DNA of 32,564 nucleotides from IMG/VR virus record IMGVR_UViG_3300048065_000709, positions 1 through 32,564 of that record. One strand, written 5' to 3'. Each line of letters starts with the position of its first letter. The first letter of the stretch is position 1. A model generated the notes under the pieces. It saw only the letters and a program-made list of their open reading frames with translations. It did not search any database and was not told the origin of the DNA. This document shows positions 1,587 through 13,411 of the stretch, piece by piece. This DNA comes from a virus. Both the position numbers and the translations under genes were made by a program.

Positions 1587-2054
1587 ATGGCAAAGAATCA
1601 AATATCTACAAGAATAAGCCCAGAAGGACTGGAAATTGCAAACGCATATCTCGAAGTCGGTAACGTAAAAGCTGTATCAATCAGACTACGAATTGACGAA
1701 GGAAAAGTATCAGAATACTTAGCTAAAAGAGAGGTGAAGCAATACATCGACCAAATATATCTAGACACGGGGTATCGAAACCGTTTTAAATTAGCCGAAG
1801 TCCTTGATGACCTTATTGACCGCAAACTCGAAGAAGCAGAAGAAAGTGAAGTATACACTAACAAAGATATTGCAGATTTAGTTGCCCTTTCACACAAAAT
1901 TCGCATGGATGAGATGAAAGCTCAAACAGAATTAGAAAAAGCACGAGCAGCAAACATCAAAAACCAGACCAATGTCCAAATCAATAGTGCAGAAATGCCT
2001 TTTGGTCAAGGAAATTATGGTGAACTCATGAAAAAATTGTTAAAGGATAAATAA
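1587..2054 (+). CDS. Putative terminase small subunit
   Basis: This 155-aa protein is charged and helical. Residues about 25-55 (GNVKAVSIRLRIDEGKVSEY and on) look like a helix-turn-helix, followed by long helices rich in Glu, Lys and Arg, ending in a flexible tail with GQGNYGELMKKLL. The plan, an N-terminal DNA-binding helix-turn-helix followed by an oligomerising coiled coil, is that of small terminase subunits, which recognise the packaging site and recruit TerL. The assignment rests on architecture, not on a diagnostic motif. TerL lies more than 10 kb downstream rather than next door, which is unusual. A DNA-binding regulator is the alternative. The start is fixed by P2, whose predicted transcription start is the ATG itself. 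Confidence 0.5.
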   Translation: MAKNQISTRISPEGLEIANAYLEVGNVKAVSIRLRIDEGKVSEYLAKREVKQYIDQIYLDTGYRNRFKLAEVLDDLIDRKLEEAEESEVYTNKDIADLVALSHKIRMDEMKAQTELEKARAANIKNQTNVQINSAEMPFGQGNYGELMKKLLKDK

Positions 2055-2056
2055 AA

Positions 2057-2230
2057 ATGGAAAAGAAAATACTACAAGTCGTAAATTTATCCCCTTCAGA
2101 GTCATGGGTAGAAAAATTAACAAATGTTCACCCCATGAAGCAGATAACTTATGCTTCAATTATTCAAATTACAGTATTTTTTGCTATGCTCGGCATGTTT
2201 AAGGTAAACTCATGGATATTTTCGATTTAA
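2057..2230 (+). CDS. Small membrane protein (57 aa)
   Basis: The ATG has an AAAGGA site about ten bases upstream and follows the previous stop by two bases. The product has a soluble N-terminal half (MEKKILQVVNLSPSESWVEK) and a single hydrophobic segment at about residues 30-50 (ITYASIIQITVFFAMLGMF), ending NSWIFSI. It overlaps the next gene by 19 bases. The family is not recognised. It is the first of several one-helix proteins that precede the curli-like genes. A holin-like role is conceivable but unsupported. Confidence 0.6.
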   Translation: MEKKILQVVNLSPSESWVEKLTNVHPMKQITYASIIQITVFFAMLGMFKVNSWIFSI

Positions 2231-2505
2231 TTAGCAAAGTAGGAGCTCCTATTGCAGCTGCAGTATTGATGGGAGGCTTTATTTTCATCATTATGAAACA
2301 AATAATGAGTGGAGTAGTGAATCAAATTGGTACTTTGAAAGGATTTTGCGAAATGTTGGTAACAAGAATTAAAACTATGAACAATGACATTATAAGACTA
2401 GACACAAGCGTATCTAGCGCACTAGAATTAACACCAGATTTAGACAGAATAGCAAGAGCAGAAAATTTTGTCGAAGACGGTAAGCTCGATGTAAGGAGAG
2501 ACTAA
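2212..2505 (+). CDS. Membrane-anchored coiled-coil protein, paralogue A (97 aa)
   Basis: An N-terminal transmembrane helix at about residues 10-30 (GAPIAAAVLMGGFIFIIM) is followed by an amphipathic coiled coil containing IKTMNNDIIRLDTSVSSALE and an acidic tail. The 91-aa product of 2824-3099 has the same plan and a matching stretch (LDNDMIRLQQKVNTVLQM), so the two look like diverged paralogues separated by the ACP gene. The helix at the extreme N-terminus resembles YvrJ-like small proteins, but this is not certain. It overlaps its neighbours on both sides, which implies coupled translation. It may form a membrane platform with its paralogue; that is inference. Confidence 0.75.
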   Translation: MDIFDLISKVGAPIAAAVLMGGFIFIIMKQIMSGVVNQIGTLKGFCEMLVTRIKTMNNDIIRLDTSVSSALELTPDLDRIARAENFVEDGKLDVRRD

Positions 2506-2720
2506 TGATAGAACAAATGATTGCAAGAAAATTAAAAATAGATGTGTCTGAAGTAACAGATGACAAGCATTTAGTAGAAGACTTAGGAGCGGATTCACTT
2601 GATACCGTAGAGTTAATAATGGAACTTGAAACAGACCACGATATAGAAATTGCAGATGAAGATGCAGAAACTTTAGTGACTGTAGGAGCAATAAAACAGT
2701 ATATAAAGGATAACGGATAA
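2505..2720 (+). CDS. Acyl carrier protein
   Basis: At 71 aa this is a near full-length acyl carrier protein. It is strongly acidic with the invariant phosphopantetheine site GADSLDTVELIMELE, where Ser31 is the attachment residue, and the usual four-helix pattern (KLKIDVSEV in loop 1; IADEDAETLVTVGAIKQYI at the C-terminus). Holo-ACP carries acyl chains in fatty acid and lipid metabolism, and it also binds unrelated partner proteins. No acyl-ACP synthase, acyltransferase or phosphopantetheinyl transferase gene is visible nearby, so the host must modify and charge it. It starts on the last base of the upstream stop and ends in a TAATG overlap with the next gene. Its place among membrane proteins and curli genes suggests envelope or lipid work, but that is inferred. 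Confidence 0.9.
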   Translation: MIEQMIARKLKIDVSEVTDDKHLVEDLGADSLDTVELIMELETDHDIEIADEDAETLVTVGAIKQYIKDNG

Positions 2721-2836
2721 TGGATGTAGTAAGTGCTTGGGATAGCTTATCATACTGGGACGGCATACTATTTACTTTTTGGATAGGTCTATTATATACT
2801 TATAAAGTATGGATAGATAATAAATGGAATCGTTAA
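2720..2836 (+). CDS. 38-aa single-helix membrane peptide
   Basis: Start and stop interlock with both neighbours: TAATG with the ACP gene, and a 13-base overlap with the next gene. The peptide begins MDVVSAWDSLSYWDGILF and is mostly one Trp- and Tyr-rich hydrophobic helix, ending in a charged KVWIDNKWNR. No family is recognised. The overlap geometry on both sides is the best evidence that it is translated. Confidence 0.6.
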   Translation: MDVVSAWDSLSYWDGILFTFWIGLLYTYKVWIDNKWNR

Positions 2837-3099
2837 TAACAAGTATACAGCAATATGGTTTCCCTATAGTTGCGATGGTTGGTTTAGGTTATTTTGTTTA
2901 TTATGTATGGCAAACTATGATAAATGTTATTGGCCCCGCTGTAAAGGAAATGCATTTTGCATTAATAAAACTAATTGACCAAATAAGAATGCTTGACAAC
3001 GATATGATTCGTCTCCAGCAAAAGGTAAACACTGTTTTACAAATGAAAGAAAATGAGAAAAAATTTAATAATAACACTACTAATCGTAACAACAAGTAA
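2824..3099 (+). CDS. Membrane-anchored coiled-coil protein, paralogue B (91 aa)
   Basis: This protein has the layout of the 97-aa product upstream. An N-terminal membrane helix (about residues 10-32, containing FPIVAMVGLGYFVYYVW) leads into a coiled coil with RMLDNDMIRLQQKVNTVLQM, then an Asn- and Lys-rich tail. Its last 47 bases overlap the CsgF reading frame, so that tail is coded in two frames at once. This directly links the small membrane genes to the curli-like block in one transcript. Function unknown. Confidence 0.75.
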   Translation: MESLITSIQQYGFPIVAMVGLGYFVYYVWQTMINVIGPAVKEMHFALIKLIDQIRMLDNDMIRLQQKVNTVLQMKENEKKFNNNTTNRNNK

Positions 3100-3544
3100 T
3101 GCAACAGAATTAGTACATAAGTTTGGCTCGCCAAGTTTTAGTGGGATTAATCAATCCGCACACTATTTGACAATTGATGAGCAAGAAAGAACAAGAAAAG
3201 ATGCTCTTGCTCAAAAAGCACAGGATGCTCTAGACGAAGCTCAAAGAGAAGCAGATAACACAACTCTTGCTAAATTTTTAAGAAACTTAGAATCAAGAAT
3301 ATACTCAACACTTGCAAAGGATATATCAGAATCTCTTTTTGACTATACAAATCCTGGCACATTAGAAAACCCTGTCACAGGTGAGATATGGCTTGAAGGA
3401 AACAGAATAATTTGGACAAACAATGGAGTCTCTATTACTCTCGTAGTCGAAGAATGGATGGATGGAGTATTGCTCTCAACAACAACTATCGAAATACCTG
3501 TAGGAAGCTTTGGAGGATGTTTTAGTGACTGTACGACTGGTTAG
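3053..3544 (+). CDS. csgF: CsgF-like curli assembly protein
   Basis: In curli systems CsgF is exported to the outer membrane, plugs its N-terminus into the CsgG pore and couples secretion to fibre nucleation. Here a 17-residue signal peptide (cut about ...TTSNA|TELV) exposes HKFGSPSFSGINQSA, which matches the E. coli CsgF N-terminus (FRNPNFGGNPNNG), the part that enters CsgG. The C-terminal half keeps the paired strands seen in CsgF (GEIWLEGNRIIWTNNGVSI, then a TTTIEIPVG strand). At 163 aa it is longer than E. coli CsgF (138 aa), with a charged helical insert around residues 40-75. It ends GGCFSDCTTG, a C-x3-C pair absent from E. coli CsgF. It overlaps the gene upstream and csgG downstream. 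Confidence 0.85.
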   Translation: MRKNLIITLLIVTTSNATELVHKFGSPSFSGINQSAHYLTIDEQERTRKDALAQKAQDALDEAQREADNTTLAKFLRNLESRIYSTLAKDISESLFDYTNPGTLENPVTGEIWLEGNRIIWTNNGVSITLVVEEWMDGVLLSTTTIEIPVGSFGGCFSDCTTG

Positions 3545-4406
3545 TATTTTATTCTTGCTTACTGGATGTGCTTCATTTGGAGTGCAACAGGATAATTGCT
3601 ATAGATTTGAAGAAGGCTTTGGAAAAGATGTTGTAACTGGAGTAGCAAAAACAGGCACAGATAGAATGGTATGTAAGACAGGCCCCGTGATACAACCAAG
3701 TGCTACACAACAATTACTTAACTTACCTTATCCAAACCAGAAGACTGTTGTAGCAGTGTACAGCTTTGGAGATAACACAGGTCAAAGAAAAGGCGGAGAT
3801 AACATTGCAAGTTTTAGTACTGCAGTAACTCAGGGAGCTCATCACATTCTAATTGAAGCTTTAAGAGATGCTGGTAGAGGAAACTGGTTTGTAGTTGTAG
3901 AAAGAAGCGGATTAGACTCTTTAACAAAAGAAAGACAACTTGTGAGAAGTACTTTTGAAAGTTACAACAAAGGAGCAGATGGAAAAACAATTTTAAAACC
4001 ACTACTATATGCAGGAATGATTATAGAAGGTGGTATTGTTAGTTATGATACTAACATAAGAACTGGGGGTAACGGTGCTCGATACTTAGGTATCGGTATG
4101 AAAAATCAATATCGTGAAGACATCGTTACAGTAACATTAAGAGCTGTATTAGTTCAAACAGGGGAAGTCTTGTTAAATGTTACAACCACAAAAACTATAC
4201 TATCCACAGGAGGTGGGGGCGATGTATTCAGGTTCATAGAACTTGGTACAGAACTTGTCGAAATCGAAAGTGGTAGTACAGAGAACGAGGCTGTTGGCCA
4301 AGCTGTAAGAGCTGCTATTGAAGCCGCTGTATATGGCTTAGTTGTACAAGGACTCGAAAAAGAGGTTTGGGATTTTAATTACTCAAGCCTGGGAGAGAAA
4401 GAATGA
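3525..4406 (+). CDS. csgG: CsgG-like outer-membrane curli secretion pore (lipoprotein)
   Basis: CsgG forms the nonameric outer-membrane channel through which curli subunits leave the periplasm. The GTG at 3525 is chosen because GGAGG (3512-3516) sits eight bases upstream and it gives a short signal ending in the lipobox LLTGC (Cys15). An in-frame TTG at 3510 would only add five residues. Family stretches are clear: VVAVYSFGDNTGQ, FSTAVTQGAH, ERSGLDSL, IIEGGIVSYDTNI, GGNGARYLGIG, TGEVLLNV and TTKTILS, collinear with E. coli CsgG. Length (293 aa) is close to the usual 277. It starts inside csgF and shares ATGA with the curlin gene downstream. The phage copy looks intact, so it should make a working pore. 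Confidence 0.95.
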   Translation: MTVRLVSILFLLTGCASFGVQQDNCYRFEEGFGKDVVTGVAKTGTDRMVCKTGPVIQPSATQQLLNLPYPNQKTVVAVYSFGDNTGQRKGGDNIASFSTAVTQGAHHILIEALRDAGRGNWFVVVERSGLDSLTKERQLVRSTFESYNKGADGKTILKPLLYAGMIIEGGIVSYDTNIRTGGNGARYLGIGMKNQYREDIVTVTLRAVLVQTGEVLLNVTTTKTILSTGGGGDVFRFIELGTELVEIESGSTENEAVGQAVRAAIEAAVYGLVVQGLEKEVWDFNYSSLGEKE

Positions 4407-5080
4407 AAAAGATAATTGGACTATTCGCGATATGTCTATCTTTTACAGCGTTTGCGGGTAATAATGATTTATATATTACTCAAACAGGTACAGGACTTAC
4501 ACTTACTATTGATCAAATAGGTGCTACTAACACAGTTGGTAAAACCGACAATAGATTTACTTTGTCAGGTACTTCAATGACAGTAGATATAGACCAGATT
4601 GGTGATACTAACACCTTCTTGGCCTCACTACTTCAAGGCAACTCATCTAGTTGGACTTATAAAGTCACTGGTGATAGTAACACTGCTACTTTAGCAGGTG
4701 GAGCTACCGGAGACATTGCTAGTTCTGATTTTGACTATATTACAATCGGTGACAGTAATGCTCTTACATGGACTCAGGGTGCTGCTTCGACAGCTACCGG
4801 AGCTAACACTGACTTTACTATAACAGGAACTTCAAATGCTGTAACAGGTACTTGCGAAGTTGTGGGTTGTATAAATAATTGGACTATTAGTGGAAACAGT
4901 AATAGTATTACTACTACTCAGACAGGTTCTGCTGACCATCAAATCACAGCATCTTTAACTGGTAGCTCGAATACTGTTACGATTGACCAAACTGATACTG
5001 CAAGTACAAACGTTGCGAATATAATATCTACCACTTCAAATGGTACTATTGATGTAGATCAATGCGCTTCTGGCTGTTAA
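4403..5080 (+). CDS. Curlin-like exported repeat protein 1 (225 aa)
   Basis: A signal peptide (MKKIIGLFAICLSFTAFA) is followed by Thr-, Asn-, Gln- and Gly-rich beta repeats with curlin-type Q-x-G elements: ITQTGTG, IDQIGATN, IDQIGDTN, TTTQTGS, plus repeated (G)DSNxxT and GTSNAVT turns. In curlins such stacked strands form amyloid secreted through CsgG. The repeats are looser than those of E. coli CsgA or CsgB. Unlike them it has cysteines: CEVVGC mid-protein and a terminal CASGC. It begins within the csgG stop (ATGA), so it is translationally coupled to its presumed export channel. Amyloid formation is inferred from the repeat type and neighbours. A non-amyloid beta-solenoid is the alternative. 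Confidence 0.8.
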   Translation: MKKIIGLFAICLSFTAFAGNNDLYITQTGTGLTLTIDQIGATNTVGKTDNRFTLSGTSMTVDIDQIGDTNTFLASLLQGNSSSWTYKVTGDSNTATLAGGATGDIASSDFDYITIGDSNALTWTQGAASTATGANTDFTITGTSNAVTGTCEVVGCINNWTISGNSNSITTTQTGSADHQITASLTGSSNTVTIDQTDTASTNVANIISTTSNGTIDVDQCASGC

Positions 5081-6162
5081 TACTTTTTAGTATACCAGCC
5101 TTTTCAATTGAGATAGGAGAAATATCTGAACTAAAAGGCAATGGAGAAATTACTAGAGTAAACTCTAATGATTCTTTCAGTGCGGAGATAGCTTCAGATA
5201 TTTTTTCCTACGATGATGTAAGAACAGGAAACGGAAGACTCGCGATACAGTTTCTAGATGATTCTATAGTTAAACTAACAGAACACTCAAAGTTAATTAT
5301 AGATGAATATATCTTTGACCCAGACCCAGCAAAGAGTAAAATGGCTCTTAACATGGCATCTGGAACAGCTCGATTCATTTCGGGTGCTTTTGGAAAAATT
5401 AATAAAGAAAACATAACTATTAATACTCCTACAGCTAAGATAGGTATTCGTGGAACAGATTTTACAACAACAGTAGATGAACTAGGTAGAAGTTTAGTAA
5501 TCTTACTACCAGATGAGAATGGAAACTCTTCAGGAGAGATAACAGTAACAACTGCATCTGGAGTAGAGGTACTTAATGAGCCTTTTCAAGCAACAATGGT
5601 TTCAGCGTGGGAACAACCACCCACACAAGCTGTAACTCTTGGAGGTCTCACACTTGGACTAATTGACAATATGCTAATTGTTCAAAGACCTGAAGAAGTT
5701 GAACAAGCAATCGAAGAACAAGAAGCAGGAGTCTCGCCTACCGCAGACTTAGATAAAGACTTCTTTGAAGATGCACCAGACTTAAACTGTGATGCTCTAG
5801 TAGAGGAATGTGACGAAGATGACAAAGAAGTTACAAGACTAGACATCGATTTGCTAAGTGTAGAGTTTCTAGTAGATTTACTAGCACTTGTAGAAACAAC
5901 AAGCAAAAAGAAAGGACAAACTTCAGAATTAAATGGAGTAGAACTCGAAGGTATAATAGCAGGTTTTGACCCTGTATATCAAACATACACTTTTGTGGAA
6001 GAAGGAATGATTTACTTTGTACATGAAGGACAGAACAATTACGACATAGGTATCGATACAAATGCAGGTACTTATTTATATATAAACAACGCAGGAGTAA
6101 TATTGGAGGTAAATATCAATGGTGCGGGTGATAACGTTATTATTATTAATCAGTCCCCTTAG
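5062..6162 (+). CDS. Exported FecR-domain protein
   Basis: A signal peptide (about MRFWLLILFSIPAFS) precedes a FecR domain at about residues 16-140, with the typical ending ITINTPTAKIGIRGTDF. The rest is acidic (EEVEQAIEEQEAGVS; CDALVEECDEDDKE) with a C-terminal region that may be beta-rich. FecR domains occur in periplasmic sensors and in envelope proteins that often sit beside CHASE2 or cyclase genes. Here the cyclase lies two genes downstream. There is no membrane helix after the signal, so classical FecR anti-sigma signalling is unlikely. It overlaps curlin 1 by 19 bases and curlin 2 by 44. A role in sensing or organising the curli apparatus is inferred from context. Confidence 0.85.
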   Translation: MRFWLLILFSIPAFSIEIGEISELKGNGEITRVNSNDSFSAEIASDIFSYDDVRTGNGRLAIQFLDDSIVKLTEHSKLIIDEYIFDPDPAKSKMALNMASGTARFISGAFGKINKENITINTPTAKIGIRGTDFTTTVDELGRSLVILLPDENGNSSGEITVTTASGVEVLNEPFQATMVSAWEQPPTQAVTLGGLTLGLIDNMLIVQRPEEVEQAIEEQEAGVSPTADLDKDFFEDAPDLNCDALVEECDEDDKEVTRLDIDLLSVEFLVDLLALVETTSKKKGQTSELNGVELEGIIAGFDPVYQTYTFVEEGMIYFVHEGQNNYDIGIDTNAGTYLYINNAGVILEVNINGAGDNVIIINQSP

Positions 6163-6913
6163 CTTTGCTGGGGATAACTCTACTACGATTATTACAAAAG
6201 GAACAAATAATCAAATTACTACTAAGCAAGTAGGAAATGGTAATACTACTTATATTCTTTGTGGAGCAAATTCAGGTGGAACTCTAACAGGAGCTTCCTA
6301 TAGCGCTCATAGCTGCACAAATGCCGTATGGAGTAGTACTATAGAAGGCAACAGTAATACAGTTAAGATGTATACTGTGTGGTCAAACAATATAGGAAAT
6401 TCTTCTACTGTAACTATAGACGGCAATGATAATTATGCATATATTGACCAAGATGAAGACGACAATGTAGTAACTATTACTCAAACAGGCAACGACAACC
6501 ATGCAGAAGCATTAGGCTCAGGAGACGACAATGTTTATTCAACTACTCAAACAGGAAACAACAAATATAGCAAAATATTCTATTTCGGTGATGATTCTAA
6601 TATTACTGTTAATCAGTATGGGACTGGTCAACATAATTCTTATATTTATGGAAATGGTGGTGCGCACAATAACTCGGCTACTGTAATTCAGTATGGCAGT
6701 GGTAATAAGGATGCAGACATCTTTTTTTACAACTCTGATAATGAAGTAGATTTAACACAATATGGAACAGGAGCTCACGTAGCAAATATGAAATTCTATA
6801 CAACAGGATATGATGTAGATGTAACTCAACTTGGAGCTACAAATCAAACATATACCGCAACTTTCAATTGTACAGCTGATTGTACAAAAACAATATCTAT
6901 TACACAACAATGA
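6119..6913 (+). CDS. Curlin-like exported repeat protein 2 (264 aa)
   Basis: GGAGG upstream sets the ATG, which lies 44 bases inside the FecR gene. After the signal peptide (MVRVITLLLLISPLSFA) come repeats of about 20-25 residues, each with a Q-[TYLV]-G element and Asn or Asp ladders: KQVGNGN, ITQTGNDN, TTQTGNNK, VNQYGTGQ, VIQYGSGN, LTQYGTGA, VTQLGATN. This is closer to the CsgA/CsgB consensus (Q-x-G-x-x-N) than the first curlin. Cysteines occur as a spaced pair in the first third (CGAN ... AHSC) and as CTADC near the end. It is probably the second fibre subunit or the nucleator. Which of the two plays CsgA or CsgB cannot be told from sequence. Confidence 0.85.
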   Translation: MVRVITLLLLISPLSFAGDNSTTIITKGTNNQITTKQVGNGNTTYILCGANSGGTLTGASYSAHSCTNAVWSSTIEGNSNTVKMYTVWSNNIGNSSTVTIDGNDNYAYIDQDEDDNVVTITQTGNDNHAEALGSGDDNVYSTTQTGNNKYSKIFYFGDDSNITVNQYGTGQHNSYIYGNGGAHNNSATVIQYGSGNKDADIFFYNSDNEVDLTQYGTGAHVANMKFYTTGYDVDVTQLGATNQTYTATFNCTADCTKTISITQQ

Positions 6914-7317
6914 AAAAATTACTACTCCTAGGATTATTTATTCAACTAGAGGCTTATGATTTTAACTTTGAGCAAATGAAGGAAGATGCGGAAAGAATAA
7001 AGGCTTCTGAGTATAGTTACAATTTTGATTTTCAAAATCCAAGACATAAATACTTTGCAGTAATAAATACATTAGATGTTGCTACTACGATATATGCTAT
7101 GGAGAATAGAAATACTTTAGCAGAAGCTAATTATTTACTTCCGGCAAAACCAGAACTTGAAGAGTTAATAATACAAAAAACTATAGTACTATACTCTCTA
7201 TATCATTTAGGGCTTTTTAGCGAGTACCCAGAAGACCAGTGGTATATAAACGCAATGAACATAACTCTAACGGCTGCAGTACTAAGCAACCTATATCATA
7301 TAAATACTAATGAATAA
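6910..7317 (+). CDS. Small membrane protein, DUF5658-like (135 aa)
   Basis: The ATG at 6910 overlaps the curlin 2 stop as ATGA and gives a signal-like start (MKKLLLLGLFIQLEA). A TTG 30 bases upstream is less likely. After a charged stretch, VINTLDVATTIYAMENRNT followed by EANYLLP resembles the lD-xxT...EaNp signature of DUF5658 membrane proteins. One or two further hydrophobic helices follow (about residues 88-100 and 112-128). Function is unknown in that family. It overlaps the cyclase gene by eight bases, so it belongs to the same module and could be a partner of the CHASE2 cyclase. Confidence 0.65.
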   Translation: MKKLLLLGLFIQLEAYDFNFEQMKEDAERIKASEYSYNFDFQNPRHKYFAVINTLDVATTIYAMENRNTLAEANYLLPAKPELEELIIQKTIVLYSLYHLGLFSEYPEDQWYINAMNITLTAAVLSNLYHINTNE

Positions 7318-9100
7318 ATTAATAAGCCCAAGCATAGGACTCTCCTTACTAGCACTTCTTATCTGGAATCCTTACCCTTTTAAAATACTTGAACTAAGTA
7401 CATTCGATTACTTAATGTCAAACTCCCCAACAATTCAAAACGAAAATATACTTCTTGTCGATCTGGACGAAGAAATAGTAGAAGCTTATGGAGGGTATCC
7501 TCTACCAAGAAGTTTATTTGCAAGTATGATAGACAGAACCGAAGGTGTATCTGGTCTAACTATACTAATGCCTGACCCCGACTTACGTGACCCTACTAAT
7601 GATTATAAATTAGGAGCGGTAATGTTTGATAAACCAACTGTGTTAGCGTATGCAGCTTCCACTCAAGCAACAGAGTCAGGACCTCATGTAGGTACAGCTC
7701 AATTAGGGGAGAATCCATTACCATGGCTATTGAACTATCCGGGAATTTTACGACAACTATCAATCTTACAGCTAAACGCAGAGGGCGTAGGCTTAATAAA
7801 CTCAAGTCCAGAAATAGACGGCGTCGTCAGGCGCATGCCAGTAGTCGTAGGAAGCGGAAATAAACTATATCCAAGTTTTCCCCTCGAAATGTTAAGAGTA
7901 GCAGTAGGCGACCCAAGTTATCAAATTAAGACTAATGAAACAGGAATAGAATGGTTAAGAATACCAAACTATCCACTAGTAAATACTGATGCAAATGGTA
8001 GAGTTTGGGTACAACAAAATATAAAATTTCATAGACAAACTGCATCAGAGTATATGGAAAGCCCAATACCAGCACCTTTTGTTATCTTTGGGGTTACAGC
8101 GGAAGGAGTAACTAACCCAGTGCCCACAGCACAAGGAGCTGTATATCCGCACGAAATCCAAGCAAATGTTCTCCACTCTTTAATAGAGGGAAACAGTCCA
8201 TCCATCCCGACATGGAATGTAGCAGTAGAGTTAGGAGCCGCCCTTTTAGCTCTACTATTACTTTCGATTACTGCATCTCGTATATGGTTATCAGTTCCAG
8301 TTTTATTACTAACTATTGGGGGGCTTATTTACTTTACGCTGGAAATGTGGAAATCTTCTTACTTGGTTGATGTTTCTGGAACTGTTTTAATCGCATTCGT
8401 TTTCTGGGCTATTGAAAGTTTCCGTAATTTCATTACGCAATATTTGCTTCGATTACAAATTAAACAACAATTTGGCACGTACGTTAGTCCGGCCTTGGTA
8501 AAAAAATTACAGGACGACCCCACATTACTGAGATTGGGTGGGGAGACAAAACGACTCACTTTTCTTTTTTCAGATATTCGAGGATTCACACCAATTTCCG
8601 AAAAATACCAAAAAGACCCTCAAGGTCTTACTCATTTAATTAACCGCTTTTTAGACAATCAGACTGAAATAATTTTGAAACATGAAGGCACAATAGATAA
8701 ATATATGGGAGATTGCATCATGGCTTTCTGGAATGCTCCCTTAGATGTAGAAGAACAAGAAAGAAAAGCCACAGAGTGTGCTATCGAAATGAGAATAGCA
8801 TTAGGAGAATTAAATGAAAAACTCAGGGAAGAAGGCCTTGACGAAATTAACACAGGGGCTGGAATCAACACAGGACCATGTGTTGTTGGAAATTTTGGGT
8901 CTAGTACTCGTTTCGACTATAGCGTACTTGGTGATGCCGTTAATCTAGCAGCACGATTAGAATCCTCTTGTAAAGACTACGATGCGGATTTAATCATATC
9001 TGAGCACAGTTTAGTTGACGGTTTTGACTACGAGTTTCTTGACGAAGTGACGGTAAAAGGCAAGTCTGAGCCAGTTAAAATATACACCATCAGAAAATAG
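7310..9100 (+). CDS. CHASE2-domain class III adenylate cyclase
   Basis: The enzyme should make cAMP from ATP in response to an extracytoplasmic signal. A first membrane helix (about residues 6-22) leads into a periplasmic CHASE2 domain (about 25-300; VDLDEEIVEAYGGYPLPR is typical), then three membrane helices (about 303-370) and a C-terminal cyclase domain (about 412-596). All catalytic residues are visible: metal-binding Asp422 in FSDIRGFT and Asp468 in DKYMGD, ATP-selecting Lys464 and Asp542 (VLGDAVNLAARLES), and transition-state Asn545 and Arg549. Lys plus Asp predicts ATP over GTP. It closes the curli-like operon and is followed at once by promoter P3, whose conserved block overlaps its last codons. 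A complete cyclase of this type is very unusual in a phage and was probably taken from a host. Confidence 0.95.
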   Translation: MNKLISPSIGLSLLALLIWNPYPFKILELSTFDYLMSNSPTIQNENILLVDLDEEIVEAYGGYPLPRSLFASMIDRTEGVSGLTILMPDPDLRDPTNDYKLGAVMFDKPTVLAYAASTQATESGPHVGTAQLGENPLPWLLNYPGILRQLSILQLNAEGVGLINSSPEIDGVVRRMPVVVGSGNKLYPSFPLEMLRVAVGDPSYQIKTNETGIEWLRIPNYPLVNTDANGRVWVQQNIKFHRQTASEYMESPIPAPFVIFGVTAEGVTNPVPTAQGAVYPHEIQANVLHSLIEGNSPSIPTWNVAVELGAALLALLLLSITASRIWLSVPVLLLTIGGLIYFTLEMWKSSYLVDVSGTVLIAFVFWAIESFRNFITQYLLRLQIKQQFGTYVSPALVKKLQDDPTLLRLGGETKRLTFLFSDIRGFTPISEKYQKDPQGLTHLINRFLDNQTEIILKHEGTIDKYMGDCIMAFWNAPLDVEEQERKATECAIEMRIALGELNEKLREEGLDEINTGAGINTGPCVVGNFGSSTRFDYSVLGDAVNLAARLESSCKDYDADLIISEHSLVDGFDYEFLDEVTVKGKSEPVKIYTIRK

Positions 9101-9174: not shown

Positions 9175-9372
9175 ATGGATGCTAATGAAGTGGCCGCAGA
9201 GCTTGCCAAGCATGAAGCTGTATGCGCAGAACGGTGGAAAACTTGTTTTAATAAGTTTGACGACATCGAAAACTCTGTAAGCAGAATAGAAACAATATTA
9301 ATTAGCGTATCAGGCACCCTTATTGTAGCGGGCGCTGGCATCATATGGACTATGTTCGCAATGCATGGTTAG
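9175..9372 (+). CDS. Small membrane protein with C-terminal helix (65 aa)
   Basis: The ATG at 9175 has a purine-rich site (AAGGGAA). Upstream in-frame codons run into P3 and are excluded. The first half is charged and helical (ANEVAAELAKHEAVCAERWK; IENSVSRIETILI) and the last 22 residues form a membrane helix (VSGTLIVAGAGIIWTMFAMH). This layout is common in small phage membrane proteins. Neither holin nor spanin function can be claimed, since no endolysin is visible in the window. Confidence 0.75.
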   Translation: MDANEVAAELAKHEAVCAERWKTCFNKFDDIENSVSRIETILISVSGTLIVAGAGIIWTMFAMHG

Positions 9373-10030: not shown

Positions 10031-10418
10031 ACCTCTACCAGACTTTACCGTCTGGCTATGGTACTTTAGGAAAATAAAAGACGTATGTCCCTGGTCTTAT
10101 AAATCATTTATAGCAGGTACTACAAATATTGTTCCCTTCAAGTTAGATACTCTTATAGAAAACGAATCTAACTGGAACGAGCAACCATGGGAGGTGATCA
10201 TCTACACAATGGGTGAGAATCAGACTCTTGACGAAATGGACTCCATAGTGGAGAAAAGAAATGAAGTCCAGGACACTTGTGAATATTTATGGTCTCACCC
10301 ATCTTTTTCAAAAGGTGGAAACAATCAAACGCCTCAACCTATTATTATACAACAGGACAGGGCAAGATTAATGGAATTAAGAAATGGCAGTAAGAAAGAG
10401 AAAAAGGAAGGTCGCTAA
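10002..10418 (+). CDS. Hypothetical protein (138 aa)
   Basis: The frame is open from 9960 and offers only a GTG at 10002 as a reasonable start, which lies within the poly-Lys gene. The product is Trp-rich (DFTVWLWYFRKIKDVCPWSY; NWNEQPWEVIIYTM) with an acidic middle and a basic tail ending RNGSKKEKKEGR. I do not recognise it. Among its basic neighbours it stands out as a conventional folded protein. The exact start is uncertain. Confidence 0.6.
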   Translation: MERRSVQEAKPLPDFTVWLWYFRKIKDVCPWSYKSFIAGTTNIVPFKLDTLIENESNWNEQPWEVIIYTMGENQTLDEMDSIVEKRNEVQDTCEYLWSHPSFSKGGNNQTPQPIIIQQDRARLMELRNGSKKEKKEGR

Positions 10419-10587
10419 GAAAAGGCCTGTGCCAACCAACCCTGCACTATACGCAAGAGTAAAGGCAGAAGCAAAAAGAAAATTTAAGGTCTATCCAAGT
10501 GCATACGCAAATGGGTGGTTAGTAAAAACATATAAGCAGCGTGGCGGACGATACAGAATGGGCGTTGCAAGGAAAAAGAAAAAATGA
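10384..10587 (+). CDS. Basic protein with poly-Lys tail (67 aa)
   Basis: Both ends are strongly basic (MAVRKRKRKVAKKRP; RMGVARKKKK) around a core FKVYPSAYANGWLVKTYKQR with GGRYR. The YPSAYANGWLVK type of core recurs in small uncharacterised proteins of aquatic phages and algal viruses, as I recall. It shares no clear alignment with the next basic proteins apart from composition and tail. Nucleic acid binding is likely, role unknown. Confidence 0.7.
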   Translation: MAVRKRKRKVAKKRPVPTNPALYARVKAEAKRKFKVYPSAYANGWLVKTYKQRGGRYRMGVARKKKK

Positions 10588-10715
10588 TAAATTGGTTTAA
10601 ACTTAAACTAACACAAATATTAAATATAGTCACAGGAAAAGATAAAAACTGGGACGGGTCAGTAGATATCAAAGATAAAATGATAGCAGCTGAACAAAAA
10701 GCAAAAAATGGCTAA
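10584..10715 (+). CDS. Small hypothetical protein (43 aa)
   Basis: The start shares ATGA with the stop of the gene before, and the end overlaps the start of the next by eight bases, which supports translation. The product begins MINWFKLKLTQILNIVTG and continues with a charged NWDGSVDIKDKMIAAEQKAK. It is amphipathic rather than membrane-spanning. Not recognised. Confidence 0.55.
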   Translation: MINWFKLKLTQILNIVTGKDKNWDGSVDIKDKMIAAEQKAKNG

Positions 10716-10989
10716 ACCTAAAGGCGGATTATCAAAGTGGTTCAAAGAAAAATGGGTAGATATATCTAGACCTAAGAAAAAGGGTAGGTATCAACCCTGT
10801 GGACGGAAGTCTGCAAAAACTTCACGAAAAGGATACCCAAAGTGTGTACCTTTAGCACGTGCAAGAACAATGAGCAAAGCTCAGAAAAGGTCGGCAGTTC
10901 GCCGTAAGAGGGCAGTACCTCAAGGCGTTGGTGGAAGACCCACTAACGTACGTACTTTTACTAAACGGAGACGTCGAAAGAAGAAGTAA
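10708..10989 (+). CDS. Basic protein with Arg/Lys tail (93 aa)
   Basis: The core has LSKWFKEKWVDISRPKKKG, then YQPCGRKSAK and GYPKCVPLARARTM, a pattern I associate with a small uncharacterised family found in many aquatic viruses (possibly DUF5872). Two Cys in PCGR and PKCVP could bind metal. The end is RTFTKRRRRKKK. High charge and position just before the packaging gene suggest a DNA-associated protein. This is inference. Confidence 0.75.
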   Translation: MAKPKGGLSKWFKEKWVDISRPKKKGRYQPCGRKSAKTSRKGYPKCVPLARARTMSKAQKRSAVRRKRAVPQGVGGRPTNVRTFTKRRRRKKK

Positions 10990-10992
10990 AAT

Positions 10993-11166
10993 ATGAATAA
11001 TCTAACTCAAGAGATTGAAAAAGTATTAGATTTATCACAAAGATTAAAAGCGGCAGTTCACTTAGAACTAGAGTATGGCTGCCAACTAAAAAAGTTATTA
11101 AATTTACCGAGAACCCCAGATAATAAGGTTCTCATTAACAGGCTAATAAGCCAAAGTACTCGCTAA
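10993..11166 (+). CDS. Small helical hypothetical protein (57 aa)
   Basis: The ATG comes four bases after the previous stop, with the Shine-Dalgarno probably within the end of the basic gene (AAGAAG). The product is helical and Leu-rich (LTQEIEKVLDLSQRLKAAVH). It has an acidic to neutral charge, unlike its neighbours, and could be a dimerising coiled coil. Not recognised. Confidence 0.55.
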   Translation: MNNLTQEIEKVLDLSQRLKAAVHLELEYGCQLKKLLNLPRTPDNKVLINRLISQSTR

Positions 11167-11185
11167 GAGTAGATAGGAATTAAAA

Positions 11186-11458
11186 ATGGCAAGACAAGGC
11201 GGATTTTTAAGCGGACCAAGTGTCCACTCAACTTCCAAGCTAAGAAAGCATGTATTGAAAAGAGGTTTAACTCGTGATTTAAATGCAGCAGCTGGAACTT
11301 ATGTAAATACTAAGTCACCAATGTCCACACCAGGTGGATTTTATGGTGCAGCACCAAAAGCAGTAGGGCCAAGATTTGGTAAAACAGTCAACCCTAAAAG
11401 AGCAAAGTTTGGAAAGAAAACACCTTCTACTTTATTGACGAGAAGGAGAAGAAGATAG
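11186..11458 (+). CDS. Basic protein with poly-Arg tail (90 aa)
   Basis: A Gly-, Pro-, Ser- and Arg-rich chain of low predicted order (MARQGGFLSGPSVHSTSKLR; TPGGFYGAAPKAVGPRFGK) ends in LLTRRRRR. It resembles packaged or DNA-condensing proteins in composition but matches no family I know. A TAGGAAT lies upstream of the ATG. Confidence 0.65.
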   Translation: MARQGGFLSGPSVHSTSKLRKHVLKRGLTRDLNAAAGTYVNTKSPMSTPGGFYGAAPKAVGPRFGKTVNPKRAKFGKKTPSTLLTRRRRR

Positions 11459-11483
11459 TATTCTAAAACAAATCAATAAAATT

Positions 11484-11591
11484 ATGAAGTCGGGTAGACT
11501 CGACAAAGTAGTAAAGAAATCTTTACTTATAGGGATGAAAGATGGCACTAACAGCAGCAGAAAAAGCAAGGTTAAAAAAAGCAGGTCTTAG
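11484..11591 (+). CDS. Possible 35-aa basic peptide overlapping the next gene
   Basis: An open frame between two basic genes starts at ATG 11484 and gives MKSGRLDKVVKKSLLIGMKD, then a Ser-, Lys- and Arg-rich end. Its last 50 bases lie inside the 114-aa gene in another frame. There is no clear ribosome site. It fits the dense packing here but may be fortuitous. Confidence 0.25.
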   Translation: MKSGRLDKVVKKSLLIGMKDGTNSSRKSKVKKSRS

Positions 11592-11886
11592 CGGACTTAA
11601 TAAGCCAAAAAGAACCCCAAATCATAAAACCAAAAAAGCAGTAGTAGCTGTAAAAGTTGGTGGAAAAGTAAAGATTATAAGATTTGGGGCTCAAGGAATG
11701 GGCCATAACTATAGTCCAGAAGCAAGAAGAAGTTTTAAGGCAAGACATGCCAAAAACATAAGAAAGGGAAAGTCTTCTGCAGCGTACTGGGCAAACAAGG
11801 TGTTTTGGGCAGGTAAAGGAGGCTCTAAGAAGCGTCCACCCAGATCACAAAAAAGAACATTAGGATTAAAAAGAAGGAGAAGATAA
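11542..11886 (+). CDS. Basic protein with poly-Arg tail (114 aa)
   Basis: It begins MALTAAEKARLKKAG and continues with PKRTPNHKTKKAVVAVK, VKIIRFGAQGM and NIRKGKSSAAYWANKVFWAG, then ends KRTLGLKRRRR. The RTPNH, RFGxQG and SSAAYWANK elements recall a conserved small-protein family of aquatic phages (possibly DUF6321), function unknown. With its basic neighbours it makes a cluster ahead of the large terminase gene. It is coupled to the next gene by TAATG. Confidence 0.75.
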   Translation: MALTAAEKARLKKAGLSGLNKPKRTPNHKTKKAVVAVKVGGKVKIIRFGAQGMGHNYSPEARRSFKARHAKNIRKGKSSAAYWANKVFWAGKGGSKKRPPRSQKRTLGLKRRRR

Positions 11887-12113
11887 TGACAACTGCAAAC
11901 GGAACAAAACTATGGCTTGAAGAAGGCGTAGTTCATGCAGGAAAGATGCTACAAGATTTGATGAAAGTAGAAGAATTTAGAGACTTATCACCAGCAGAAA
12001 AGAAGATAAAAACAGTATCGGCTACTTACTGCTACCTTTATACTAAACTAAAAGAGCTGGATTTATTAGTAGATTCAGATGATAATTATTTCCCTGACGA
12101 GACAATACATTGA
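11886..12113 (+). CDS. Small acidic hypothetical protein (75 aa)
   Basis: TAATG coupling sets the start. The chain is helical (GTKLWLEEGVVHAGKMLQDL) with an acidic end (LLVDSDDNYFPDETIH). It ends with TGA sharing bases with the TTG start of the terminase gene. Its place directly before TerL, with the small size and helical character, would also suit a small terminase subunit, so it is an alternative candidate for that role. Confidence 0.65.
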   Translation: MTTANGTKLWLEEGVVHAGKMLQDLMKVEEFRDLSPAEKKIKTVSATYCYLYTKLKELDLLVDSDDNYFPDETIH

Positions 12114-13411
12114 TAGAAATTAGCCGTACAGATATACTAGGCGACTATCTTATGGACTTAAGTCCTGAAAGTCGTTTCATTAAACTACCCATAATGGAGT
12201 ATCTTGAACTGTTAGGTATAGAACCTAACTCATCCCAAAAAGCAATTATAAATGCTGTTAACAATCCCAAATATAGATTCGTTTGTGCGGCTATATCTCG
12301 TCGTCAAGGTAAAACTTATATTTCAAATATAATAGGACAACTAGTTTGTTTAGTACCAAACAGTCATGTACTATTAATGTCACCTAACTATTCATTATCG
12401 CAAATCTCATTTGATTTGCAAAGAAATCTTATTAAACATTTTGATTTAGAGGTACTTAGAGACAATGCAAAAGATAAAGTTATTGAACTTTCAAATAATT
12501 CTACAATTCGTATGGGTTCCATTAACCAAGTTGATTCGGTTGTGGGTAGGTCATACGATCTCATCATATTCGACGAGGCCGCTCTCACAGACGGGAGGGA
12601 TGCTTTCAATGTTGCGCTCAGGCCCACACTAGACAAAGAAAACTCAAAAGCAATCTTTATATCTACTCCAAGGGGTAGAAATAATTATTTTGCTGAGTTT
12701 TACTACAGAGGTTTTAGTGATGAGTTTCCAGAGTGGTGTTCAGTAAAAGCAACCTGGCATGAGAATCCTCGTGTAGCAGAATCAGATATTATTGAAGCAA
12801 AGAAAACAATGTCTGAGAATGAATTTGCACAAGAGTACTTAGCAGACTTTAATGTCTATGAAGGTCAAGTCTGGGCATTTAATCATGAAGAATGTATAGC
12901 AGATTTATCCCAACTTGATGTTAGTCAGATGGATGTTTTTGCAGGTCTTGACGTAGGTTATAAAGACCCTACAGCATTTTGTGTAATTGCTTACGACTGG
13001 GATAAAAGAAAATATTATCTAATAGATGAATATATGGATGCCGAGAAGACTACAGAACACCATGCAATGCAGATCCAAAAATTAATTCATAAATGGGATA
13101 TTGACTATATTTATATTGATTCTGCCGCTCAACAAACAAGATACGACTTTGCACAAAACTATGATATTAGTACTATCAATGCTAAAAAATCAGTACTTGA
13201 TGGTATAGGACATGTTGCAACAGTAGTTGATAATGATGAACTTATTGTTAACCAGTCCTGCAAAGAAGCCTTAATATCATTAGACCAATATCAATGGGAT
13301 CCAAACCCTAATTTATTAAAAGAGAAACCAAAGCATAATATGGCATCCCATATGGCGGATGCTATGCGATATGCGTTATATACATTTGAAACTACAGCCA
13401 CAACGTTCTAA
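12110..13411 (+). CDS. terL: Terminase large subunit (ATPase and nuclease)
   Basis: TerL pumps DNA into the prohead and cuts the concatemer. The ATPase domain has Walker A SRRQGKT (residues 63-69), Walker B LIIFDEA (Asp155, Glu156) and the coupling motif STPRGR (185-190). The RNase H-like nuclease has its three acidic sites at GLDVGYKDPT (Asp281), YIDSAA (Asp337) and HMADAMRYAL (Asp417). The 433-aa length is normal for a compact TerL. The TTG start overlaps the upstream stop; ATG at 12152 would shorten it by 14 residues and cannot be excluded. It lies directly after the basic-protein cluster, far from the putative small subunit at 1587. Confidence 0.95.
   Translation: MIEISRTDILGDYLMDLSPESRFIKLPIMEYLELLGIEPNSSQKAIINAVNNPKYRFVCAAISRRQGKTYISNIIGQLVCLVPNSHVLLMSPNYSLSQISFDLQRNLIKHFDLEVLRDNAKDKVIELSNNSTIRMGSINQVDSVVGRSYDLIIFDEAALTDGRDAFNVALRPTLDKENSKAIFISTPRGRNNYFAEFYYRGFSDEFPEWCSVKATWHENPRVAESDIIEAKKTMSENEFAQEYLADFNVYEGQVWAFNHEECIADLSQLDVSQMDVFAGLDVGYKDPTAFCVIAYDWDKRKYYLIDEYMDAEKTTEHHAMQIQKLIHKWDIDYIYIDSAAQQTRYDFAQNYDISTINAKKSVLDGIGHVATVVDNDELIVNQSCKEALISLDQYQWDPNPNLLKEKPKHNMASHMADAMRYALYTFETTATTF

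Follow-up and report, generated by a model that had tools for sequence, protein, structure and literature searches.

A curli-like secretion module with a FecR-domain protein and a CHASE2 cyclase in a fragment of a T5-like phage

The 32,564-base viral fragment IMGVR_UViG_3300048065_000709 (positions 1 to 32,564, analysed as a whole and called the window below) carries, between the terminase genes terS and terL, a block of genes that we favour, with somewhat better than even confidence, as a viral type VIII (curli) secretion module, which would make curlin-like fibres on the surface of the infected cell and would be tied to a FecR/CHASE2-cyclase sensor. The original prediction, made from the letters of this DNA, had described an ordered chain of intact genes for CsgF, CsgG, two curlin-repeat proteins, FecR and a CHASE2-cyclase, and both integrity and order are borne out by Pfam profile matches and open reading frames (ORFs) on the same strand. 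All ten ORFs at 2212-9100 are open, lie on one strand and mostly overlap. The features of the locus, with profile matches and E-values, are the following.

1587..2054, + strand: terminase small subunit (terS), left neighbour of the module (phrog_3802, 4.4e-40)
2212..2505, + strand: S1, small membrane protein, the first of a paralogous pair (phrog_18771, 5.4e-25)
2505..2720, + strand: acyl carrier protein (ACP), stand-alone, between the two S genes (PF00550, 2.5e-13)
2824..3099, + strand: S2, second small membrane protein (phrog_18771, 1.7e-26)
3053..3544, + strand: CsgF homologue with a signal peptide-like start (PF10614, 2.3e-9, above cut-off; phrog_35372, 2.3e-31)
3510..4406, + strand: CsgG homologue, outer-membrane secretion pore lipoprotein (PF03783, 5.3e-56; lipobox LLTGC read from the sequence)
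4403..5080, + strand: curlin-repeat protein 1 (PF07012, Curlin_rpt, 1e-4, above cut-off; family alignment)
5062..6162, + strand: exported FecR-domain protein with a linker of low model confidence, then a C-terminal beta part that closes with a curlin-like motif (PF04773, 1.3e-11)
6119..6913, + strand: curlin-repeat protein 2, predicted beta-solenoid (PF07012, 4e-13, five repeats)
6880..7317, + strand: exported or membrane protein without a family assignment (resembles DUF5658 only at E 0.08, under cut-off)
7310..9100, + strand: CHASE2 sensor with class III adenylate cyclase (PF05226, 5.6e-28; PF00211, 4.7e-20)
9175..9372, + strand: small XhlA-like protein whose C-terminal part holds a single hydrophobic stretch, a layout that by eye resembles holins (phrog_38642, unknown function)
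12110..13411, + strand: large terminase subunit (terL) of T5-like type, which anchors the locus on the right (46-49% identical to Demerecviridae phages over 97-98%)

Family assignments in the window were made by Pfam, PHROGs and NCBIfam profile scans of the module proteins. CsgG matched solved PDB CsgG chains (5e-46 over 232 residues), and phmmer with the window CsgF matched no relative among solved structures. Both curlins, CsgF, CsgG and FecR start with what read as export signals, and the block thus appears to encode the parts by which curli (type VIII) secretion is recognized, namely a CsgG pore homologue, its CsgF partner and a putatively exported curlin-repeat substrate. The AlphaFold model of curlin 2 is a beta-solenoid of twenty strands (mean predicted local distance difference test score, pLDDT, 83.7; predicted template modelling score, pTM, 0.84), in agreement with the curlin solenoid expected for it. 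A structure search with this model returned general beta-helix folds; no curli fibre structure was among the 50 matches listed, which excludes nothing. No NCBIfam equivalog, including those of CsgA and CsgB, was found at cut-off for the module proteins. Phage families of unknown function exist in PHROGs for CsgF, CsgG, FecR, the CHASE2 cyclase and the small membrane proteins, indicating that the module recurs in phages. A CxxxC pair was seen at or near the C-terminal end of CsgF and both curlins (3510-3544, 5050-5080 and 6860-6910); since it is kept in both curlin families, disulfide bonds are likely in the exported proteins. The protein at 6880..7317, which had been called DUF5658-like, could not be placed in that family at the E-value given above, and is a variable member of the block with relatives in 12 loci including the window.

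The carrier is assigned to T5-like (Demerecviridae-like) phages by its TerL, portal, capsid and major tail protein. Besides TerL, the portal is 40-41%, the protease-capsid fusion 33-39% and the major tail protein 37-38% (over 71-73%) identical to proteins of T5-like phages, and My1 and Slocum, two of the best-matching phages whose records were checked, are Demerecviridae. A 1547-residue tape measure, a distal tail protein and a J-like tip complete the phage context, and the view that a curli-like module with a sensor cyclase is phage-borne, in the late region of a tailed phage, is upheld by the terS, terL and structural genes on its flanks.

To see how regularly the module occurs, we searched viral contigs for the same gene order, as had been suggested, using the best 80 of 92 confirmed IMG/VR relatives of the window CsgG. 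The ordered core CsgF-CsgG-curlin-FecR-curlin-cyclase is complete in 66 of these 80 loci, which argues that the block is phage DNA; among the other 14, 13 run off the end of the retrieved stretch and one (L054) has FecR split over two ORFs. The terS gene lies ahead of the small proteins in 23 loci, terL follows the cyclase in 21, and both flank the module in 14. From window base 1, a stretch of 10,971 bases recurs at 99.8% identity in an independent contig (L001), and this contig together with the 14 loci flanked by terS and terL rules out a host segment joined by misassembly.

Approached from the other side, with the best 80 of at least 596 TerL relatives, 21 loci with at least 3.9 kb upstream could be used (two of them contigs also in the CsgG set), and 19 have a module gene there, at least the cyclase. 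Ten of the 19 show the cyclase alone, their contigs starting there, and six also show CsgF and CsgG. One of the two remaining loci (L295) is uninformative, its contig beginning after the XhlA-like gene, and the other (L275) truly has no cyclase at the module place. Between the XhlA-like gene and terL of the latter (L275:1442-4574) several leader-bearing proteins of unknown family were observed, which may be an alternative exported system; an early idea that they might be pili was not borne out. In a quick CsgG tree, for which the program warns of long branches, all 18 rows with a T5-type terminase cluster with four rows whose contigs show no terminase (SH-aLRT 98). This group adjoins carriers with spanin or lysozyme neighbours, and viral rows stand apart from four cellular rows (100), suggesting that the T5-like lineage acquired the module once and has long kept it. 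Backbones were typed for loci with a T5-type terminase.

Module genes are under purifying selection: against five chosen T5-like relatives the ratio of nonsynonymous to synonymous substitution rates (dN/dS) is 0.06-0.22 where dS could be estimated, compared with 0.05-0.07 for terL, several terS and S comparisons being saturated. When four loci (L002, L005, L009 and L013) were compared with the window in 300-base steps, the part from CsgF to curlin 2 was 81-96% identical and the CHASE2 part 54-67%; the same drop was weaker in L006 and L007 and absent from L004, L015 and L016. It seems from these profiles that the exported block, FecR included, is exchanged in one piece and that the sensor is not part of this piece.

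The FecR-domain protein would be part of this exported machinery and not an iron regulator of the usual kind. PF04773 is found in all 43 family members, with just stray weak Pfam matches besides; N-terminal to the domain there is only a short hydrophobic leader. No anti-sigma part was found before a membrane span, and the window protein matches no other Pfam family. Its model resembles the PupR signalling domain (Z 15.1, root mean square deviation 2.5, 135 residues), a Parabacteroides anti-sigma factor (Z 13.0) and, over 74 of 76 residues, the 'cell surface anchoring domain' 5ix9 (Z 7.4, deviation 2.2). The whole AlphaFold model has a mean pLDDT of 66, residues 195-285 lying mostly below 50 and residues 291-366 forming a predicted beta part with pLDDT 73-88 per block. 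The C-terminus reads NGxGxNxIxIxQS, and the motif G-x(1,2)-N, with a Q six positions further along, occurs in 61 of 64 distinct FecR tails, 152 of 155 curlin proteins and one of 771 other ORF tails, a motif picked after the tails had been inspected and counted over 64 related sequences. Among the ten module ORFs Pfam gave no match to CsgE, CsgC or CsgD, as had been noted before, and the accompanying suggestion that the FecR/cyclase pair may stand in for CsgD finds no support as regards FecR in the part of a cytoplasmic regulator, because the protein is exported and has no anti-sigma part.

The sensor at the end of the block aligns with a CyaB chain (4e-36). Asp422, Lys464 and Asp468 are kept in 64 of 64 relatives, Asn545 in 61 of 62 and Arg549 in 62 of 62, and they align with catalytic residues of CyaB/CyaC. 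Considering their conservation, the cyclase is probably active. Cellular genomes were examined for counterparts of this sensor and of the curli genes. Among 385 genomes of Alphaproteobacteria, the class of a genome (G001) that contains module contigs, CsgF occurs in five, one of them just through the module contigs of G001; the other four have CsgF-CsgG-curlin, and no FecR, CHASE2-cyclase or S gene was found in the 4.0-15.5 kb viewed at these four loci, in agreement with the statement in PMC9599517 that FecR and the cyclase are not part of bacterial curli operons. At eighteen of the best-scoring cellular FecR loci, CsgG, CsgF and curlin gave no match; the FecR-bearing proteins there range from a few hundred to about 2000 residues, with a cyclase-model match at 5 of the 18. 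CHASE2 is present in 65 of 142 genomes, and a FecR model match lies within about 6 kb of 7 of the 20 best CHASE2 places, as against one of 20 control stretches, which were positioned by hand (several CHASE2 contigs are short). Since cellular loci keep the two sets apart, the viral module looks like a curli operon plus a separate FecR/CHASE2 sensor pair, and this pairing is supported by the proximity counts and by the Burkholderia BiofilmReg operon, in which, as described in PMC5192318, FecR is paired with a CHASE2 kinase and linked to biofilms. A scan of contigs from cellular genomes with the FecR alignment gave four loci, among which no cellular copy of the whole module was seen, two on one contig (L085/L087) and one on another (L086) having phage-type genes beside it. 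The fourth (L088, on the contig also labelled L124, in a metagenome-assembled genome titled Saprospirales) has a curli module on a contig that may be mixed or phage; this module adjoins ORFs resembling, by eye, succinate dehydrogenase SdhB, an alternative oxidase and a TorF-like porin.

The small membrane proteins and ACP ahead of CsgF, which the original prediction had grouped with the module, fared differently: S1 and S2 belong to a phage family, and ACP, which apart from the window and its sub-locus L081 was seen just in the near-identical contig L001, is a local insertion outside the conserved module. The S family comprises 103 distinct sequences of 61-133 residues (median 94), 62 of which have no His, and no kinase domain was found in them by Pfam. 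Judging from place, size and copy number, they are probably the genes named 'HK' in PMC9599517, where one or two short 'histidine kinases' are described before CsgF in the pelagiphage module; with most sequences lacking His this name is doubtful, and we reject a histidine-kinase reading of the S proteins. Their matches to a holin family are weak (phrog_4898, E 0.006 for S2 and 0.24 for S1).

We suggest that the module is probably expressed late in infection, when the curlins would be exported to the periplasm and cross the CsgG-CsgF pore, giving amyloid-like fibres on the surface of the infected cell. Staying at the periplasm or pore, the FecR-domain protein would contact the fibre path through its curlin-like tail; the CHASE2 domain may read this protein and set the cyclic AMP level. 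The likeliest benefit would be an altered cell surface, that is, either clumping with siblings or neighbouring cells or protection from other phages, two effects that are not separable here.

Several observations weigh against this reading. Export, amyloid and benefit are inferred from sequences, and 'late' is judged from gene position. With no CsgE found among the ORFs at 2212-9100, gating is left without explanation. Melnitz cultures showed no clumping by cytogram or transmission electron microscopy in the passages of PMC9004378 on this phage. Pfam Curlin_rpt, with E-values up to 10 admitted, matched none of the 43 FecR family members, and hhalign of the FecR tail against both curlin alignments gave a probability of about 1% (P 0.047), and thus the likeness of this tail to curlins comes from the short motif and the predicted beta part. 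Finally, many carriers have spanin and endolysin genes after the module, which would fit a role in lysis equally well.

Such a lysis or timing device, in which CsgG-CsgF would be a regulated pore or an outer-membrane weak point, the curlins plugs or cargo, and the module would time release together with spanins and endolysin, is in our view unlikely. Among 29 loci without a T5-type terminase and with at least 1 kb past the cyclase, the genes next on the same strand include a spanin pair in 13, a phage lysozyme in 12 and at least one of them in 16 (L002 and L014 have the T5-type small gene there instead), a spanin pair lies within 2.5 kb of the cyclase in 6 of 24 T5-like loci, and S2 has its weak holin-like match. 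However, a lysis device could do without FecR, the cyclase and two conserved curlins; among the scanned proteins between cyclase and terL in the window no spanin or endolysin was recognized, and the records of HTVC008M and Melnitz-3 have no lysis gene annotated beside the module. A lysis role was proposed for Melnitz in PMC9004378 (2022), in an argument built on the absence of csgA/B, yet the Melnitz-3 record annotates two curlin-repeat proteins, contrary to that statement. The main text of PMC9599517 uses none of the terms lysozyme, endolysin, spanin and holin.

An uptake pore, proposed in PMC7029224 and PMC9599517, by which CsgG would admit large nutrients or cofactors during infection with FecR as an iron-linked part, is improbable, because it leaves the conserved curlins (dN/dS 0.06-0.22) and CsgF unexplained, FecR has no anti-sigma part and no sigma factor was recognized among the scanned window proteins. 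Decoration of the virion by curlin solenoids or the FecR protein is very improbable: the module does lie among packaging and structural genes, but the export signals on the curlins, CsgF, CsgG and FecR would direct them out of the cytoplasm, the place of virion assembly.

Within the surface-fibre module that we favour, a more specific and quite speculative role for FecR is that of a fibre-anchored sensor, its folded domain acting as a periplasmic stopper, a flexible linker reaching the CsgG-CsgF pore, the tail strand joining or nucleating the amyloid, and the CHASE2 cyclase reading fibre production. If true, the virus would encode a circuit for sensing the secretion of its own amyloid, and this circuit would be regular in a T5-like marine lineage.

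Around the module, the 9175..9372-type small gene, whose window protein gave no Pfam match, is next after the cyclase in all 24 T5-like loci with at least 1 kb downstream. In T5-like carriers a porin-like Gcw_chp protein can come after it (L030:8088-8693, PF09694, 3e-16; a similar ORF in L036), and an IscU/NifU-like ORF (by eye) is next. Between module and terL in the window (10384-11886) there is a row of small Lys/Arg-rich proteins, two of them DUF5872-like and one also resembling phage minor head protein families, relatives of which are present in other T5-like loci. Directly upstream of terS (680-1519) lies a cytosine-5 DNA methyltransferase (TIGR00675, 1.8e-42).

Curlins and a sensor cyclase beside CsgF/CsgG had been thought unrecorded in phages; they are already in print and partly in the records of Pelagibacter phage HTVC008M and Methylophilales phage Melnitz-3. 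PMC7029224 (2020) deals with CsgF and CsgG and 'sibling capture', PMC7198788 (2020) with curli genes in a T4-like contig, and PMC9599517 (2022) describes the full module, with curlins, FecR and cyclase, in podovirus and myovirus pelagiphages, its genes being expressed in metatranscriptomes and superinfection defence or aggregation being suggested. Thus, the whole module was known from marine podo- and myoviruses. What the window adds is a T5-like lineage as a third carrier that, by the loci compared, keeps the module regularly, along with the reassessment of FecR and the 'HK' gene, the exchange block and the lysis neighbourhood; we found no report of T5-like or other siphovirus carriers, or of FecR linked with curlin, in the open-licence PMC literature. 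Regular presence in this lineage besides podo- and myoviruses argues that the module is useful across unrelated virus backbones. If it works, the host would be made to display amyloid that SAR11 and the OM43 strain do not themselves encode, according to the passages on these hosts in the cited papers. The reassessment shifts FecR to the predicted exported machinery and the supposed histidine kinases to small membrane proteins, and the spanin/endolysin neighbourhood turns surface fibre versus lysis into a clean experimental choice.

Compared with known systems, the window is closest to the pelagiphage type VIII secretion module as set out in the curli passages of PMC9599517, which has the order small protein(s)-CsgF-CsgG-CsgA/B-FecR-CsgA/B-cyclase and is given there without CsgC, CsgD and CsgE. 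It differs in its T5-like carrier, in the position between terS and terL, in the additional ACP and unnamed exported protein, in small proteins that are not histidine kinases, and in a FecR read here as an exported fibre-side protein and there as a regulator. HTVC008M and Melnitz-3 share the order CsgF, CsgG, curlin, FecR-type, second curlin-type and cyclase, and their CsgG is 45-49% identical to that of the window; however, they are T4-like myoviruses (Kyanoviridae in the records) with the module near replication genes, the structural genes that come after it being on the opposite strand. The four alphaproteobacterial curli operons share CsgF-CsgG and curlin-repeat genes and differ by the absence of FecR, CHASE2-cyclase and S genes from the stretches viewed. 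The Burkholderia BiofilmReg operon likewise places an exported FecR-domain protein beside a CHASE2-sensor signalling protein, but there a LysM-FecR protein accompanies a CHASE2 histidine kinase, and the passages of PMC5192318 on this operon name no curli genes.

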